DNA of 64,000 bases from Polynucleobacter sp. MWH-S4W17 (GTDB lineage: Bacteria; Pseudomonadota; Gammaproteobacteria; Burkholderiales; Burkholderiaceae): NCBI RefSeq assembly GCF_018687535.1, contig NZ_CP061295.1, forward strand, positions 310,001 through 374,000. Reading direction: 5' to 3'. Positions 46,006 to 52,755 of this stretch are shown one piece after another. The position numbers and the translations under genes were made by a program. Every line of letters begins with the position of its first letter. Within the stretch, counting starts at the first letter, position 1. The notes below the pieces were generated by a model. The model saw only the letters and a program-made list of their open reading frames with translations. It did no database searches and was not told where the DNA came from.

Positions 46006-46821
46006 TCAATGATTTATTGCTTTGATCATTAAGCTCACGGCAATGATCAACGTAAAGACTGCAAATATTTGCTGAATTCTAGGGCCGCTTATTTTTCGCT
46101 CCAATACTTTTCCTAGCAGAAGTCCCAATAGCGAACCACAGGCAAAAGGAATTGCAATGGCTGTATTCAGAGTTCCGGATGCAAGGGAGATAAAGGCACC
46201 CCCAGCAGAAACAATTGCGAGAACACCAAGTGAGGTGGCAACAATTGATTTCATTGGCAGGTCAGTGAATTTATTTAAGGCGGGAACTAGAATGAATCCG
46301 CCACCAACACCTAATAGGCCCGATAAAAATCCAGCAATGGCGCCAGAGAACATTAGTGCACGAGCACACGGCACTGTCCAAATCAGCTTTCCAATTGATG
46401 AGTCTAGTTGGCAGGGTGGACTTTTAATTTGTGGAAGGGGTTTTCCGGAAAGATTTCTGGCAACCTGTAAAAGCATCCGAATAGAAACGTACATCAACAC
46501 CAGGCTAAATAATATTAGTAGCGGAGTATTCGGTACCTTCTGAGCTAGCCATAAACCAGCCGGGGATAGGACCAGGCCAAAAATCGCCATTAACATGGCT
46601 GCTTTATAGCGAAGTGCTTTGGCCTTGAATCCAATTACAGCGCCTGCAAAAGCCGAAACAGTAATTGCTGTTAATGCTATCGGGCCTGCCTCTGACATTG
46701 GCAGATGCAGAAGAAACACCAGTAATGGTACTGATAAGATGCCGCCCCCAGCCCCCGTCAGGCCCATTAAGACGCCAACAAATACTCCAATTGCTAAGGT
46801 TAGGTAGGGCAAAAAGTCCAT
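46006..46821 (-). CDS. TauE/SafE-family sulfite (sulfur-anion) exporter
   Basis: 271 residues from ATG 46821; a TTG at 46824 is possible. Eight hydrophobic segments with the family repeats GVFVGVLMGLTGAGGGILSVPLLVF and IAGFLSGLLGVGGGFILVPALNKF. In BigR-type operons such proteins are thought to export sulfite made from persulfide oxidation. It starts just after the SQR stop, supporting that role here. Confidence 0.87.
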   Translation of the reverse strand: MDFLPYLTLAIGVFVGVLMGLTGAGGGILSVPLLVFLLHLPMSEAGPIALTAITVSAFAGAVIGFKAKALRYKAAMLMAIFGLVLSPAGLWLAQKVPNTPLLILFSLVLMYVSIRMLLQVARNLSGKPLPQIKSPPCQLDSSIGKLIWTVPCARALMFSGAIAGFLSGLLGVGGGFILVPALNKFTDLPMKSIVATSLGVLAIVSAGGAFISLASGTLNTAIAIPFACGSLLGLLLGKVLERKISGPRIQQIFAVFTLIIAVSLMIKAINH

Positions 46822-46824
46822 CAA

Positions 46825-48069
46825 TTAATTTTCAAATGGACGCGCTAACCACTCTCTTCCCTTGAGCATCGCATTCCAGTAAAGCCAAGGAAGAACATCT
46901 TTCTTCAGAATCCAAGCGAGTCTTGTAGCCTTAAGTGGATTAATGAGCCAAGGAAAAGTGGGCAAGAGTTTTCCACCAAAGCCAAACTCTGCCAAAACAA
47001 TTTTCCCGTTCTCTACCGTCAGTGGGCATGAGCCATAACCATCATATTTAGTTGGCAGGGGTTTGTTGTGTTTTGCTGCTAGTAAGTTCTCTGCGACGAC
47101 CACAATCTGTTTTCTGGCTGCTGCAGCAGTTTTAGAGTTTGGCGACGAACAGCAATCACCAAGTCCGAAGATATTCGGGTAGCGAGTATGTTGAAGGGTG
47201 AATTGGTCTACATCTACAAAGCCATCAGCATTGGAAACAGGGCTTCCCTTGAGGCAGTCTTGAGGGCCTTGCGGGGGTACTACATGCAGCATGTCAAAGG
47301 ATTTTTCAACCTGCGTAACATTTCCATCTGCATCCTTGACTGCAAAAATCGCTTTTTTAGCTGGGCCATCCACGGAAATGAGATTGCTATTGAAATTGAG
47401 TTTGGCGTTATATTTTTTGACATATTCCATAAGTGGCGGGACAAAGTCGGCTACACCAAAGAGTGCGCCACCCGCATTGTCTAACTCAACCTCAATATTG
47501 TTTAGGCGACCTTGCTTCTGCCATTCATAGCAAGATAGATACATTGCCTTCTGAGGTGCGCCAGGGCATTTGATTGGCATAGGAGGTTGAGTAAAAATGG
47601 CTTTCCCAGACTTCAGGCCTTGAACAAGTTCCCAGGTATAAGGAGAGTACGTATAACTATAGTTAGAGGTCACCCCATTTTTACCAAGTGTTTCCTTTAG
47701 CCCGGGTATAGCATCCCAGTTTGTCTTAATGCCTGTTGCAATTGCTAGTTGCTTATATTTAACTGCAGCACCATTACTAACCAGAACTTCATTGGCCTCT
47801 GGATTGAAGCCCACAATCTTCTCTTTAATCCAGCGCACTCCTGATGGAATGAGATCTTTAGTTTGACGACGACTATTTTTGACGTTAAATGCACCGCCGC
47901 CCACTAGCGTCCAAGAGGGTTGGTAATAGTGCTCTTCAGAGGGCTCAATGATTGCGATATTTAGAGAGTGGTCTCTGGATTTCAGGCTAGCAGCTAAGCC
48001 TATGCCAGCAGCGCCACCGCCTGCAATTACTACGTCAAATACATTGGAACTCGAGTTTGCTGAAGTCAT
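46825..48069 (-). CDS. sqr: Sulfide:quinone oxidoreductase-like flavoprotein
   Basis: 414 residues. FDVVIAGGGAAGIGLAASL is the FAD site, PSEEHYYQPSWTLVGGGAF the SQR-type continuation, and PIKCPGAPQKAMYLSCYEWQKQGR carries the redox-active Cys pair region. NIFGLGDCCSSPNSKTAAAARKQ closes the FAD domain. It oxidises sulfide to persulfide and reduces the quinone pool at the inner membrane. Divergent from the persulfide dioxygenase and regulator genes. Confidence 0.88.
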   Translation of the reverse strand: MTSANSSSNVFDVVIAGGGAAGIGLAASLKSRDHSLNIAIIEPSEEHYYQPSWTLVGGGAFNVKNSRRQTKDLIPSGVRWIKEKIVGFNPEANEVLVSNGAAVKYKQLAIATGIKTNWDAIPGLKETLGKNGVTSNYSYTYSPYTWELVQGLKSGKAIFTQPPMPIKCPGAPQKAMYLSCYEWQKQGRLNNIEVELDNAGGALFGVADFVPPLMEYVKKYNAKLNFNSNLISVDGPAKKAIFAVKDADGNVTQVEKSFDMLHVVPPQGPQDCLKGSPVSNADGFVDVDQFTLQHTRYPNIFGLGDCCSSPNSKTAAAARKQIVVVAENLLAAKHNKPLPTKYDGYGSCPLTVENGKIVLAEFGFGGKLLPTFPWLINPLKATRLAWILKKDVLPWLYWNAMLKGREWLARPFEN

Positions 48070-48215
48070 ACTATCTCCACCTCTATGTTTTATTAGATCT
48101 AGGTCAATAAAATAGCTTGAATTATAGTGATTGGCTATCAGGGTTTATGATTAGTCTACATTTTTATATAGTATTTATCATAAAATAAATCATTTACAGC
48201 AAATTGGATAAATAG
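48070..48215. promoter_or_regulatory. Divergent promoter region of the sulfide genes
   Basis: The 146 bp between the divergent starts is AT-rich, with overlapping weak dyads such as TTTAT-C-ATAAA around 48175-48186. This is where a BigR/SqrR-type repressor would be expected to bind. I cannot define the exact operator or the -35/-10 boxes with confidence. Confidence 0.35.
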
Positions 48216-49076
48216 ATGAAACCGATTGTTAAGGGCTTTTTTGACCCGGATACCTGGACCGTAACTTATGTGGTTTATGAGAAACCGGGTTCACCATGTT
48301 TAATCATTGATTCAGTGCTTAATTATGACCATAAGTCAGGGCGTACTAAAACGAAATCAGCCGATGAAGTGATTGAGTTCGTCAAGGCCAATCACCTGGC
48401 TACAGAATGGATTTTAGAAACCCACGCACATGCAGATCATGTTTCAGCGGCACCGTATCTAAAATCAAAATTAGGCGGCAAGATTGCTATAGGTGATCAT
48501 ATCTCGGTGGTACAGGGGGTATTTAAAAAAGTGTTTAATTTGGAAGAGGCATTTCAAGCGGACGGCTCTCAGTTTGATGCTTTGCTTAAAGATGGGGAAG
48601 AAATTCACTTTGGAAATCTAAGCTTTAAGTCCCTCTTTGTTCCCGGTCATACGCCAGCCTGTATGGCTTATCAAGTAGGTGATGCCATTTTTGTAGGCGA
48701 CACCATGTTTATGCCTGACGTTGGAACTGCCCGATGTGATTTTCCAGGCGGTGATGCACACACGCTTTATCAGTCGATGCAAAGGATTTTAAGTTTTCCT
48801 GGTGAGACTAGATTATTTATGTGCCACGACTATCCGCCAAATGGGCGTCCAGTAAATTACGAAACAACAGTAGCTGAACAGAAGAAATCGAATATTCATA
48901 TGCATGATGGTATTACTGAGGATGAGTTTGTTCAGATGCGTAGTAAGCGTGACGCCACATTAGATATGCCGGTACTTATTTTGCCTTCGATCCAAATTAA
49001 CATTCGCGCAGGTGATATGCCTCCGAAGGAAAGCAACGGGATTTCATATTTAAAGATTCCTCTTAACGCACTGTAA
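48216..49076 (+). CDS. Persulfide dioxygenase-like metallo-beta-lactamase protein (Blh/ETHE1 type)
   Basis: 286 residues. The metal motif THAHADH lies near residue 70, followed by VPGHTPACMAYQVGDAIFVGDTMFMPDVGTARCDFPGGDAHTLY and MCHDYPPNG. This matches the Blh branch of ETHE1-like persulfide dioxygenases, which oxidise glutathione persulfide to sulfite. It is the partner of SQR and of the BigR-type regulator six bases downstream. Confidence 0.88.
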   Translation: MKPIVKGFFDPDTWTVTYVVYEKPGSPCLIIDSVLNYDHKSGRTKTKSADEVIEFVKANHLATEWILETHAHADHVSAAPYLKSKLGGKIAIGDHISVVQGVFKKVFNLEEAFQADGSQFDALLKDGEEIHFGNLSFKSLFVPGHTPACMAYQVGDAIFVGDTMFMPDVGTARCDFPGGDAHTLYQSMQRILSFPGETRLFMCHDYPPNGRPVNYETTVAEQKKSNIHMHDGITEDEFVQMRSKRDATLDMPVLILPSIQINIRAGDMPPKESNGISYLKIPLNAL

Positions 49077-49081
49077 TTTTC

Positions 49082-49402
49082 ATGTTGAACGAAAAAAAAC
49101 GAATTGCAGAACTTAAGAAGATGCAGTCTTCTGCCACAAAGGCTTGCGAGTTCTTAAAAGTACTTTCAAACCCGAGTCGACTGATGTTGTTGTGTGAAAT
49201 CGCTGTTGAGGAGCGGTGCGTTGGGGACCTGGAGGAATCAACCGGAATACATCAACCAACCTTATCGCAACAGCTGACAGTACTACGTACTAAAAAGTTG
49301 GTTAAGACACGCAGAGACGGTAAGCAAATTTATTATTCTCTTTCCAGTGACATAACGTTATCGGTCATGAACTTACTCTACAGTCATTATTGTAAAAAAT
49401 AA
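49082..49402 (+). CDS. BigR/SqrR-type persulfide-sensing ArsR-family regulator
   Basis: 106 residues. The winged HTH is LEESTGIHQPTLSQQLTVLRTKKLVKTRRDGKQIYYSLS. Cys38 and Cys104 are 66 residues apart, the same spacing as the reactive pairs of SqrR (41/107) and BigR (42/108), which form a tetrasulfide link under sulfane sulfur. It should repress both divergent sulfide transcripts. Two further Cys (22 and 46) are present. Confidence 0.85.
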   Translation: MLNEKKRIAELKKMQSSATKACEFLKVLSNPSRLMLLCEIAVEERCVGDLEESTGIHQPTLSQQLTVLRTKKLVKTRRDGKQIYYSLSSDITLSVMNLLYSHYCKK

Positions 49403-49426: not shown

Positions 49427-49852
49427 TTAGCTAACCATTGTTTTTGGCTTCCTAATGACGGTTAGGTGCAATAAGAAGATGACAGCGAACATTAGCCCCA
49501 TAATCCAATGGGTGTCAATTGCAGTATCGCGGATTTCCTCTGGCCCGTAATAAAGCATTCCGCCGGTAATGAGAAGTGCAAATAGAAAGCCCAGTTGGCT
49601 AAAGCCACTCCACAACTGCTTTCTGGACTTATAGCCCACCTTGATATGAAATGGCATTACTGATCCAAGAGCTAAGGTAGCCAGCATTGCAGCAATGCCA
49701 TGAGCTGCGAGAATGCTATGTGTGCCAAGAGTGGATCTTTGGATCTGAAATTGATGCCCTAGAAGATACATCAGGCCAGTGATTGAGCAGGCCATCATGC
49801 CGCAGATGACAAACGTTCTTTGCCAGCGAGGCATCTTCCCAAGGCGGCTCAT
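49427..49852 (-). CDS. Small four-helix membrane protein with histidine pairs, possible b-type cytochrome
   Basis: 141 residues with four membrane segments (about 13-31, 45-66, 84-101, 113-132). H51 and H69 sit on or near helix 2, H115 and H129 on helix 4; this could hold heme b in the way of cytochrome b561/DUF4405-like proteins. I do not recognise an exact family. Last gene of a Fur-linked operon, overlapping apbE by four bases, so it probably passes electrons across the inner membrane to the flavinylated protein. Confidence 0.65.
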   Translation of the reverse strand: MSRLGKMPRWQRTFVICGMMACSITGLMYLLGHQFQIQRSTLGTHSILAAHGIAAMLATLALGSVMPFHIKVGYKSRKQLWSGFSQLGFLFALLITGGMLYYGPEEIRDTAIDTHWIMGLMFAVIFLLHLTVIRKPKTMVS

Positions 49853-50670
49853 GCGACTATCCTTAGTGCTTGCGCTGAGAAATGACTAAAGCAAGGATGA
49901 TGCTCATTATTGGATAAGGCTAGAACCTTGGTGAGTGCATCAGCATAAACACACTCTTTTGCAAGAATAGAGAATGACCCAGCAATCTCCACATGAACCT
50001 CGGAAAAATTCTGGGCTAGAGGGTTGATGATATGACTCCTCTGACCATCTCTTTTTGCAAAGTAAAGGCTGCTTGTGGCAATAGCTCCATCTTTCAAAGA
50101 TCCGATATGAATTAACTCCTCAGATCTCTCAGGATGACGAACTTGAATTGGGAGGGAGGTATTCCCAAAAACCCGTAGGTCACCACCAGCATTCACTGAG
50201 CCGGATGTGATGCCCTCTGATATTAAGACTCTCACCGCCATATCTACTGCAAACCCTTTGGCGATTCCACCCAGATCAAGGCAGACCGGGCGGCGGGACT
50301 GTATCAAGTCAGGCGCTAGGAAGTGAATGTCTTCAACGCCACCAAGATCATGATTGGAGAAGTTGATATGGCGGGGTAATAATCCCGCAGCAACCAGACG
50401 ATGGCCTATTCCACAATTAAATAGGCCATCGGATTCAAGGTGAACCTCTTTTGCAATTCGGATGACTTGCGCAGTCCATGGATGAATCTCAACTGCTCCC
50501 ATGTGGGCACTTCGATTGATTTGGCTTAGCTCACTTTCAGGATCATGAAATCCCATGAGGTCATGAATATTTTGAATGGCTGCAAAAGCATTATCAACAG
50601 CCGCTTGCCCATCATCTTGATGTATGGAGATCTCTACAAAGGTGCCAAGAAGTGGTTTGCAACGAAGCAT
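49849..50670 (-). CDS. apbE: FAD:protein FMN transferase
   Basis: 273 residues. CLDLGGIAKGFAVD, SVNAGGDLRVFG, SSLYFAKRDGQRSHIINP and ECVYADALTKVLAL are the ApbE motifs for FAD and Mg2+ binding. It attaches FMN covalently to Thr in secreted or membrane targets. The frame opens with the domain itself and shows no lipoprotein signal, so the enzyme may work before export or the start may be further upstream. The next gene upstream encodes a matching FMN-binding substrate. Confidence 0.9.
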   Translation of the reverse strand: MLRCKPLLGTFVEISIHQDDGQAAVDNAFAAIQNIHDLMGFHDPESELSQINRSAHMGAVEIHPWTAQVIRIAKEVHLESDGLFNCGIGHRLVAAGLLPRHINFSNHDLGGVEDIHFLAPDLIQSRRPVCLDLGGIAKGFAVDMAVRVLISEGITSGSVNAGGDLRVFGNTSLPIQVRHPERSEELIHIGSLKDGAIATSSLYFAKRDGQRSHIINPLAQNFSEVHVEIAGSFSILAKECVYADALTKVLALSNNEHHPCFSHFSAQALRIVA

Positions 50671-50672
50671 TG

Positions 50673-51230
50673 TTACTTTCCGAGGCTGGGTTTTGAATGG
50701 TTGTTCTTCAGGGCTAGGTCATATAAAACCGTTACCCGCTTCACTCCATCAGTAAGGTGTTTGCAAGAAAGTGTTGCGCCACCAATATTCTGAATATCTT
50801 GATTAAGCTTGATGGGGTCATTTACGGTCTTACCTACAAACTGTTTACGCCATTGCGCTTCTGCTACTTCATAACCATAAGATTCAATGTATTCCAAAAC
50901 TTCGATACCAGCGATGCCACCATTTGGGTTGATGGCAACGGCATAAGTAATCATTTCATGTTTTCCTATGACTTCGTCAACCACAAACCAGCTACCATCA
51001 GCTGCCCTCCAGATGCGCTCGCCCTGAAAGGGGTAACGAATGCTGGATGCGATACGCATCTTTTCTTGCAAATCATCCGTAATGATGACGGGATTCTTCG
51101 TCAGTATTTTGTTAGGGAAAAGAATTTTTAGAGCTTGCTCTGCAGAAACATAAATTTTTGCATGGGCAATGATTGGTGCGCTCATCATTGCTATGCCAAT
51201 AAGAGCTAAGGGGTTAGGTTTCCAGATCAT
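50673..51230 (-). CDS. Periplasmic FMN-binding-domain protein, probable ApbE substrate
   Basis: 185 residues with a signal peptide (about residues 1-24, ending IIAHA). The FMN_bind domain shows YAVAINPNGGIAGIEVLEYIESYGYEV and the flavinylation motif NIGGATLS with T153 as likely acceptor; the usual S-G-A-T is G-G-A-T here. apbE follows two bases downstream. It would carry electrons in the periplasm. Confidence 0.85.
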   Translation of the reverse strand: MIWKPNPLALIGIAMMSAPIIAHAKIYVSAEQALKILFPNKILTKNPVIITDDLQEKMRIASSIRYPFQGERIWRAADGSWFVVDEVIGKHEMITYAVAINPNGGIAGIEVLEYIESYGYEVAEAQWRKQFVGKTVNDPIKLNQDIQNIGGATLSCKHLTDGVKRVTVLYDLALKNNHSKPSLGK

Positions 51231-51253
51231 GGGGTGATATCTAGGTAATGTAT

Positions 51254-51433
51254 TTAGGCAGTAAGTAATTCATTCGCTTCATTACAAAGTGCTTGAATTT
51301 CTGGGTTGATGCCTTGGACATTTGAGAGTTTGTCAAACATCATCAACGCTCTTTTCTTGGCTGTTTGACATTGGGTGGCTTGAAACTTCAGCAAATGAGC
51401 TAAAGCTGCAACTAATAGATTCTGAATTTCCAT
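51254..51433 (-). CDS. Small helical protein (59 aa) inside the Fur operon
   Basis: ATG 51433 to TAA at 51254. The product MEIQNLLVAALAHLLKFQ... is helical with a polar, Cys-containing middle (FQATQCQTAKKRALMMF) and a second Cys at residue 50; no membrane helix. It starts 12 bp after the outer-membrane gene and ends 23 bp before the FMN-binding gene. The tight packing is the main support; ribosome binding is weak (GAAAGA). No family recognised. Confidence 0.6.
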   Translation of the reverse strand: MEIQNLLVAALAHLLKFQATQCQTAKKRALMMFDKLSNVQGINPEIQALCNEANELLTA

Positions 51434-51445
51434 AATTTCTTTCGC

Positions 51446-52360
51446 TTAATTAAGTGGGAAGCCAACTTTGACAATGAATTCATTTACTGAGTGACTATCC
51501 CAGACGCGAGCATCTGAGCATTCGGCCTCTCCACCACCCATGCAGGTGCCGCCTGCAAGTTGATAGCGCCAAGCGCCAGTAACCCACCAGTCTTTGGCTG
51601 CGTAATGCATATTGGGACCTACAAAAGTGGCTCTTTGGACTTGATTGCGTAAATTTAGCTCTGAATAATCATTATGAAAACGTGCCTCCACACCAGCCGA
51701 CCACTTGGGGGCAAAGCGATAGCTCGCGCCCACCAGGAAATCGAGCATCGATTCAGGAACGTTGCCGTTTTCAATAAACTTTAAGCGCTCATTCGCAGCT
51801 ACAACGTTACCCGCCAAAATTAATCGATCATCAATAAAGTTAGATTGCAGCAAGAGTCTCGCCTCGAGCTCATCTTTATTTCTTCCCCATGTCGGCTCTA
51901 AATAAAGCCCTACACCTACAGGCGAAGTCACTGGATTGGTGATGCGATAAATTGCTTCTAGAGAGCCACCTTCAATGCCACTTTTCTTATACGCTGTTGA
52001 GGGGTCATGCGAAGAAGGTACTCCGTAACCGCCGGTACAGGTTGGAGTATCTCCGCAAGCTTCTGGATTAGTGTAATTTTGATTTGCATTGGTGTAGTAA
52101 GAGTTGATATAGCCAGCAACCTGAAAGTCGTTAGTTAAACCATATTCCAGTTCGGTCCTAGCGGTTAATGCATCGTAAGTTCCTGCTGCTTGCTGTTGAT
52201 TGAGTTGTAGACGCTGCTCAAACTCCAGCTTGCCCTTAGGCTGTAAATCTAAGGTGTAGATCCAGCCAAACACTCCCTCGCCTGCATGGGCTAAGGAGAA
52301 GTGAAGTGTGGCAACTAAGAAGAGGCTGAATGCAAGAAGTCTATTGATGGTCAATTTCAT
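51446..52360 (-). CDS. Outer-membrane beta-barrel-type protein (DUF6662-like), iron-regulated
   Basis: 304 residues with a signal peptide (ending SLAHA). The rest alternates polar and aromatic residues as in barrels (KLEFEQRLQLNQQQ, TARTELEYGLTNDFQVAGYINSYY, VGASYRFAPKWSAGVEARFHND). I believe it belongs to the family filed as DUF6662, but cannot verify. First gene after the two Fur boxes, so produced under iron limitation. May be an outer-membrane port for the flavin redox system. Confidence 0.7.
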   Translation of the reverse strand: MKLTINRLLAFSLFLVATLHFSLAHAGEGVFGWIYTLDLQPKGKLEFEQRLQLNQQQAAGTYDALTARTELEYGLTNDFQVAGYINSYYTNANQNYTNPEACGDTPTCTGGYGVPSSHDPSTAYKKSGIEGGSLEAIYRITNPVTSPVGVGLYLEPTWGRNKDELEARLLLQSNFIDDRLILAGNVVAANERLKFIENGNVPESMLDFLVGASYRFAPKWSAGVEARFHNDYSELNLRNQVQRATFVGPNMHYAAKDWWVTGAWRYQLAGGTCMGGGEAECSDARVWDSHSVNEFIVKVGFPLN

Positions 52361-52392
52361 GGTCCCTTGAGGTTAGTGGTTAGCAATCTAAA

Positions 52393-52435
52393 TGAGAATG
52401 GTTCTCAATATAGCATTAGATGAGAATGATTCTCA
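52393..52435 (-). promoter_or_regulatory. Two Fur boxes upstream of the flavin operon
   Basis: TGAGAATGGTTCTCA (52393-52407) and TGAGAATGATTCTCA (52421-52435) match the betaproteobacterial Fur box; the second is a perfect 7-1-7 palindrome. They are 33 and 61 bp upstream of the start of the outer-membrane gene. The spacing of 28 bp between equivalent bases places both on nearly the same face or allows tandem dimers. Repression by Fe2+-Fur is expected. Confidence 0.85.
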
Positions 52436-52512
52436 ACTAATTAAAATAACCATGACCTAAGAAATGGCGAAATCTATGGGCCTATTCTTTTTTGCTTGTA
52501 AGATTTCTACAA

Positions 52513-52755
52513 ATGAACGCTGAGTCCTTGGAAAAACTGGTTTTAATGAAGATGCCTTTTGGTAAGCACGCAGGGCGTACATTGGCTGATCTGCCGGGGA
52601 ATTATTTGGCGTGGTTTGCCCGCGAAGGTTTTCCTAAGGGCGAGCTTGGTGAATTATTGGAATTAATGCATACCCTAGACCACAATGGTCTGCGTGGACT
52701 CTTGGCGCCAATCCAGCGGGCGCATGGCCTGCACGCTAAATCTAAATTACTTTGA
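52513..52755 (+). CDS. DUF3820-family small protein
   Basis: 80 residues from ATG 52513; a TTG at 52492 is less likely. KMPFGKHAGRTLADLPGNYLAWFAREGFPKGELGELLELMH is the DUF3820 (quorum-sensing-regulated-virulence-factor-like) pattern, a short domain that resembles a piece of an exonuclease fold. Function unknown. Converges with and overlaps the endonuclease gene by nine bases. Confidence 0.75.
   Translation: MNAESLEKLVLMKMPFGKHAGRTLADLPGNYLAWFAREGFPKGELGELLELMHTLDHNGLRGLLAPIQRAHGLHAKSKLL

Follow-up and report, generated by a model that had tools for sequence, protein, structure and literature searches.

A probably Fur-controlled flavin-transfer cassette of Polynucleobacter sp. MWH-S4W17 as a candidate periplasmic ferric reductase

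We analyzed an operon of Polynucleobacter sp. MWH-S4W17 which lies in a 64,000-nucleotide stretch of contig NZ_CP061295.1 (positions 310,001 to 374,000; hereafter the window) and may encode a periplasmic ferric reductase. The genome is a single contig of 2.05 Mb, and the genome-wide statements below were drawn from searches of it. Five closely spaced open reading frames (ORFs) were found at the locus, all on the minus strand; they are flanked by a divergent gene at 52492 and, on the other side, by an ArsR-type gene that runs convergently and ends at 49402. In the order of transcription, they encode a DUF6662 outer-membrane protein of 304 amino acids (aa) (51446..52360), a 59-aa protein (51254..51433), an exported FMN_bind protein of 185 aa (50673..51230), an ApbE-family flavin transferase of 273 aa (49849..50670), and a four-helix membrane protein of 141 aa that resembles di-heme cytochrome b (49427..49852). 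The ApbE and cytochrome ORFs overlap by 4 bases. Two Fur boxes stand ahead of the first gene on the same strand. Box 1 (52421..52435; TGAGAATGATTCTCA on the plus strand) is a perfect 7-1-7 palindrome, and box 2 (52393..52407; TGAGAATGGTTCTCA on the plus strand) lies 28 bp from it. The best promoter match is a sigma-70-like TTGAGA-18 bp-TATATT at 52407..52436 on the minus strand (10/12 consensus matches; a consensus match only). Box 1 overlaps its -35 hexamer and spacer, and box 2 abuts the -10 hexamer, at or just downstream of it.

A genome search for TGAGAATNNTTCTCA gave only 5 exact matches, two of them at this operon; the other three are in the feoAB promoter, upstream of a HiPIP gene, and in a porin region. 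When one mismatch was allowed, the whole genome gave 7+7 strand matches versus 1+0 for the reversed control pattern. The 19-mer Fur consensus of E. coli failed to single out the site, whose 14/19 score was shared by five other places in the window; we therefore base the Fur-box assignment on the palindrome and on its conservation. At 30/30 congeneric loci, the 200 bp ahead of the first gene contained a box of at least 12/14 matches, versus 0.7% of shuffled sequences, and no such box stood upstream of the inner genes (0 of about 37 for each, congeneric loci). The genome encodes one Fur-family protein from a single fur gene, so that both the promoter-overlapping boxes and the regulator expected of a Fur regulon are at hand. 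The ORF positions, the genome search with TGAGAATNNTTCTCA, and the conservation of the boxes confirmed the five-gene set with two Fur boxes given in a preliminary description of this DNA. The Fur control proposed there is supported by the boxes, their overlap with the promoter, the 30 congeneric loci, and the single fur gene; the operon is probably controlled by Fur and switched on when iron is scarce.

The other sites of this type were also inspected. Transcription of the feoA-feoB genes (genome about 656800-660150; L040 6809-10154) diverges from that of a gene pair encoding a cupredoxin and a beta-barrel protein; a single Fur box of this type separates the two sets, and the cupredoxin/beta-barrel pair may be another iron-uptake component. 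The HiPIP gene, encoding a periplasmic electron carrier, is at L032 1501-1968 (genome about 295046) and has a Fur-type box upstream. At genome positions 2010828-2010871 (L041 7407-9332), a pair of Fur-type boxes, of which one has a mismatch, is spaced by 29 bp. The pair is flanked by the gene for a His-rich 121-aa protein and by a porin-like ORF that appears split (349 + 98 aa), possibly by a frameshift. The divergent neighbor of the operon (52492-52755) encodes a PF12843 (QSregVF_b) protein; its start is beside the Fur boxes, and it may use the same regulatory region.

Next, we examined the conservation of the gene set. The FMN_bind gene is carried by 51/63 genomes of the genus, and the barrel, FMN_bind, ApbE, and cytochrome genes keep one order in most of the congeneric regions read. 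We scanned the named GTDB genome collection, using an FMN_bind alignment led by a distant relative, obtained at least 529 relatives, and examined the best 80. These came from Gallionellales, Sulfuriferula, Thiobacillus, Methylophilaceae, sphingomonads, Shewanella, other gammaproteobacteria, Verrucomicrobia, Omnitrophota, and Bdellovibrionales. Among these best 80 loci, the FMN_bind gene was present in 80, apbE in 78, the cytochrome gene in 75, and the barrel gene in 70, almost always in the same order. The four main genes are a conserved cassette, kept in alpha-, beta-, and gammaproteobacteria, Verrucomicrobia, Omnitrophota, and Bdellovibrionales. Variants of the cassette were also observed. 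A tandem pair of FMN_bind genes occurs inside it at L096 4989-6154 and L103 4998-6164, and many betaproteobacterial cassettes have a porin gene (Porin_4/Porin_O_P) after the cytochrome gene, e.g., at L107 6976-8199. In two congeners (L072 of G011, and G017:C1:276045-276480), a frameshift or stop seems to interrupt the cytochrome gene. The 59-aa gene was found only in part of the genus, and its product has no signal peptide and gave no match in the searches, Pfam included; the third-position-biased divergence in a codon-position test shows that the gene is coding.

The first gene product matched Pfam DUF6662 (PF20367) with 49.4 bits against a cut-off of 27, and three relatives scored 274-542 bits. 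It has a signal peptide, and AlphaFold2 predicted a 12-stranded beta-barrel (predicted local distance difference test [pLDDT], 87.8), for which the nearest Foldseek matches were FapF, a COG4313 channel, and porins of the KdgM/NanC type. Nothing in the protein pointed to a redox cofactor, and it showed neither heme motif nor surface anchor; the open-access literature searched did not mention DUF6662. The predicted barrel looks, in our judgment, too narrow for a flavin domain. A channel for small solutes would fit the model, and a channel for iron complexes would be its simplest reading.

The FMN_bind protein matched its Pfam family (PF04205) with 39.3 bits against a cut-off of 22. It carries a Sec-type leader ending in AHA, and Sec-type leaders were also found on its relatives. 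The acceptor threonine of the GGATLS motif, T153, was invariant in 26 aligned sequences; the motif begins with GGAT here and SGAT in many relatives. Flavin mononucleotide (FMN) would thus be attached covalently to T153 by the ApbE of the operon, a bond we infer from the motif. A Tat leader, which would explain loading in the cytosol, was considered and rejected: twin-arginine patterns were found in 2/80 proteins, both upstream of the likely start.

The ApbE of the cassette belongs to its family (PF02424; 135.8 bits against a cut-off of 25.6), and no second ApbE was found in the genome. Bacterial ApbEs are typically exported lipoproteins, and the known cytosolic exceptions act on cytosolic targets (PMC12052999). 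The protein studied here has neither a signal peptide nor a lipobox, with at most 16 hydrophilic residues in frame ahead of its ATG. Nearly all cassette ApbEs are leaderless, and most have their ApbE domain only a few residues from the likely start. In the Pseudomonas stutzeri enzyme, Thr301, which follows the conserved Asp297, is a Mg-ligand residue (PMC5655446). The conserved Asp is kept, and the position of the Thr is taken by Lys248, the last residue of the motif ADxLTK; Lys was found in 91/91 aligned cassette ApbEs, and Thr in 24/28 aligned other ApbEs of the order. His257 of the Vibrio cholerae enzyme has been reported as absolutely conserved and essential (PMC5655446). Its equivalent is kept here (H213), but only 10/93 aligned cassette ApbEs have this His, whereas 28/28 aligned others do; the alignment of the loop around the catalytic His is less certain than the position of the Lys. 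The preliminary description had taken the enzyme as a standard ApbE, which does not hold given the missing leader, the Lys in place of Thr, and the loss of the catalytic His in most relatives. This departure from the known type is the most surprising part of the finding. Either the mechanism is altered and the flavin is loaded before export, or loading would occur in a way not yet seen. It is possible, if rather doubtful, that the cassette proteins form a distinct class of leaderless ApbEs, marked by the invariant Lys, and that these enzymes use an altered catalytic scheme to load the partner protein with flavin in the cytosol, either ahead of Sec export or in the course of it.

The 141-aa membrane protein passed no Pfam family cut-off. 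Matches below the cut-off were to DUF4405 (PF14358; 15.4 versus 26.7 bits) and cytochrome b561 (PF01292; 13.4 versus 30.1 bits). Its relatives in an alignment of 66 sequences are about 25% identical to the window protein, and at E ≤ 0.1, 37/66 matched cytochrome b561 (best 3.2e-8) and 29/66 matched DUF4405, mostly weakly. Four histidines (H51, H69, H115, and H129) were invariant in 33 protein sequences drawn from whole genomes and again in the 66. The protein has four invariant histidines but four helices rather than the six of DUF4405. An AlphaFold2 model (pLDDT, 88.5) placed the histidine pairs on helices 2 and 4 (41-76 and 105-132), as in cytochrome b, with the four-helix core of the PF01292 superfamily. 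VIA structural alignments gave Z scores of 11.7 for cytochrome b6, 10.8 for the cytochrome b of E. coli hydrogenase-1, 10.4 for the superoxide oxidase CybB, and 9.8 for FdnI. Because designed helical bundles were also among the structural matches, and helical bundles generally score fairly high, Z alone is not decisive. Foldseek ranked FdnI first with no match below E 0.001, and a search of PDB sequences with the cytochrome profile returned nothing convincing; the fold assignment therefore rests on the VIA alignments and the invariant histidines. The positive-inside charge bias puts the N terminus, the loop between helices 2 and 3, and the C terminus inside; H51/H115 would then lie toward the periplasmic side of the membrane and H69/H129 toward the cytoplasmic side. 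The 141-aa protein is thus likely a di-heme cytochrome b, a four-histidine arrangement to which the invariance, the predicted helices, and the charge bias all point.

In addition, the gene neighborhoods of the best 80 related loci were investigated. A feoB gene lies within 5 kb of the cassette in 11/80 loci, on the upstream or the downstream side depending on the lineage, and 12/80 loci have a bacterioferritin gene within this distance; by a rough estimate, chance would place feoB that close in well under one of 80. A Pfam check was run on one such cassette-neighbor locus. No flanking gene was as common as those for FeoB, bacterioferritin, and the porin. Fur-like boxes of at least 12/14 matches were found ahead of 16/78 distant cassettes versus 0.26% of shuffles, and those of at least 13/14 were mostly upstream of feoB, bacterioferritin (bfr), or the start of the cassette. 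Within the genus, 39 genomes have both the cassette and FeoB, 12 the cassette only, 1 FeoB only, and 11 neither (P = 2e-5, Fisher test, ignoring phylogeny). The link to iron made in the preliminary description is much stronger for the same Fur box at feoAB, the feoB and bacterioferritin neighbors elsewhere, and the co-occurrence with FeoB.

Other iron-uptake genes were surveyed in the genome and the genus. A strong FeoB match was missing in 23/63 genomes of the genus, and FTR1 was found in only 4. FTR1 is absent from the present genome and was rejected as a partner. The idea of a genome without TonB receptors was likewise rejected, since four TonB-receptor plug matches were found. In many congeners, a TonB-dependent receptor is encoded about 10-20 kb from the cassette (e.g., G036:C1:328187, G004:C1:390141, and G018:C1:329376), and none was seen in the window. 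Neither a PepSY_TM protein or reductase nor an IucA/IucC synthetase was found in the genome. Adjoining the operon, positions 46006-49402 hold a likely sulfide-oxidation cluster, with genes for a TauE exporter, an SQR-like pyridine nucleotide-disulphide oxidoreductase, a metallo-beta-lactamase-fold protein similar to persulfide dioxygenase, and the ArsR-type regulator.

We consider it fairly likely that the operon encodes a periplasmic ferric reductase induced by iron starvation and serving iron assimilation. In such a system, Fur-Fe(II) on the two boxes over the promoter would repress the operon, and all five genes would be expressed once iron drops. Quinol would be the most likely donor of electrons to the small cytochrome b at the inner membrane; the electrons would cross its two b hemes, with the H69/H129 pair toward the cytoplasmic face and the H51/H115 pair toward the periplasmic one. 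The cytochrome would then reduce the periplasmic FMN_bind protein through the FMN that ApbE had attached to T153. Fe(III), free or weakly chelated, would enter through the DUF6662 channel and be reduced by the FMN protein, and the resulting Fe(II) would be imported by FeoB, which is under the same Fur box. The 59-aa protein would be a lineage-specific accessory. We infer the direction and donor of the electrons and iron as the substrate, along with the covalent FMN, the heme, and the role of the channel. The electron-transfer set with a cytochrome-like membrane protein, as first described, gains support from the invariant histidines, the AlphaFold2 model, and the structural matches.

Several observations weigh against a ferric reductase that feeds FeoB. 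Flavinylation of an exported protein is not assured, because the ApbE has no export signal, carries Lys in place of Thr, and lacks the catalytic His in most relatives. Among the 51 congeners that bear the cassette, 12 have no detectable FeoB, and two of those have FTR1. The feoB and bacterioferritin neighbors are concentrated in Hydrogenophilales, Sulfuriferula, and other betaproteobacteria, and because they cluster in few lineages, the 80 loci are not independent observations. Furthermore, most distant cassettes have no clear Fur box, and the test for co-occurrence with FeoB takes no account of the relatedness of the genomes.

The Fur control would also fit an iron-sparing electron carrier, in which the flavin protein replaces iron-rich periplasmic carriers under starvation, by the same logic as flavodoxin for ferredoxin, and reduces no iron for uptake. 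The benefit of flavin carriers in iron-poor settings has been proposed (PMC8238504), and the Fur box upstream of the HiPIP gene would place another periplasmic electron carrier under the same control. However, the cassette itself holds a likely heme protein and a conserved outer-membrane channel, it has feoB and bacterioferritin neighbors, and no terminal reductase is linked to it; we consider such a system unlikely. Reduction of ferri-siderophores (xenosiderophores), where a TonB receptor provides entry and the FMN protein strips Fe(III) by reducing it, as proposed for FoxB/HiuB, is also unlikely. The constant outer-membrane partner is the DUF6662 barrel, no TonB receptor is part of the operon, and the genome has no IucA/IucC synthetase; nonetheless, the four plug matches, the TonB-receptor or ExbB genes near a few cassettes, and the receptors at about 10-20 kb in many congeners would be in line with this idea.

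The remaining two alternatives concern where the electrons go. The dedicated outer-membrane protein kept in 70/80 loci could indicate that the FMN protein is exposed beyond the barrel, or acts through it, and reduces extracellular iron directly; the preliminary description had likewise suggested electron delivery outside the cell, as one of two options. The predicted 12-stranded barrel is like small channels and much smaller than porin-cytochrome conduits, and neither a heme motif nor a surface anchor was seen, so that this route finds no support and is very improbable. The similarity of the cytochrome model to E. coli CybB (Z, 10.4) would allow a superoxide oxidase-like or other quinone-redox protective system carrying electrons inward from the periplasm to quinone. 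We give this almost no weight: cytochrome b6 and other di-heme b folds match equally well, which makes the CybB match nonspecific, and the linkage to feoB and Fur and the flavin protein would be left unexplained.

A periplasmic ferric reductase would bear on how small freshwater bacteria obtain iron. Polynucleobacter asymbioticus has been reported to have ferrous uptake only and to be unable to use Fe(III) (PMC6629928). A Fur-controlled reductase feeding FeoB would suggest how such bacteria live in oxygenated, ferrous-poor water and would make the claimed inability to use Fe(III) directly testable. The cassette spans several phyla, yet its cytochrome and barrel carry no assigned function, and its ApbE deviates from the accepted catalytic residues. 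If that ApbE is active, the cassette would change ideas on the site and manner of flavin attachment to exported proteins. If it does load its partner in the cytosol, the cassette would be a widespread iron-assimilation reductase that acquires its flavin inside the cell, whereas Nqr and similar systems have been described as being loaded in the periplasm.

Finally, we compared the cassette with known systems; no description of it was found in the open-access text searched. Flavinylation clusters linked to iron uptake are known in PepSY, MsrQ, DsbD, Nqr/Rnf-like, and P19 types (PMC8238504), and some are repressed by Fur (PMC3751524). Like the cassette as we read it, the PepSY/DUF2271/DUF4198/ApbE clusters (PMC8238504; Caulobacter CC_3059-3063, PMC3751524) combine an ApbE with a di-heme membrane protein and a periplasmic protein that is flavinylated. 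They are induced in low iron, repressed by Fur, and proposed to act in iron reduction, as we propose for the cassette (PMC8238504, PMC3751524), whereas the cassette has a four-helix b-type membrane protein, an FMN_bind flavin domain, a constant DUF6662 barrel, and a leaderless ApbE of the Lys type. The DUF4405 cytochromes and FezC (PMC10979944) are also small membrane proteins with four conserved histidines in an ApbE context, and heme b has been shown for DUF4405; the cassette protein differs in having four helices instead of six, an FMN_bind partner, and a Fur/FeoB context. In the P19/FTR1 clusters with an FMN-binding gene (PMC8238504), a flavinylated protein is similarly proposed to act in iron assimilation, but the present genome has no FTR1, Feo is the apparent partner, and the cytochrome and outer-membrane parts are different. 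FoxB and HiuABC (PMC12424826) would share with the cassette Fur control (HiuABC), two His-ligated hemes in a membrane protein, and a proposed reduction of Fe(III) ahead of FeoAB. In contrast to the cassette, they belong to the PepSY family and work with a TonB-dependent receptor, and the hiuABC operon has no FMN_bind or apbE gene. NqrC and RnfG have the FMN_bind domain in common with the exported protein and bear covalent FMN on the GAT threonine, whereas the cassette has no Nqr/Rnf subunits and pairs a free-standing exported protein with a cytochrome b.

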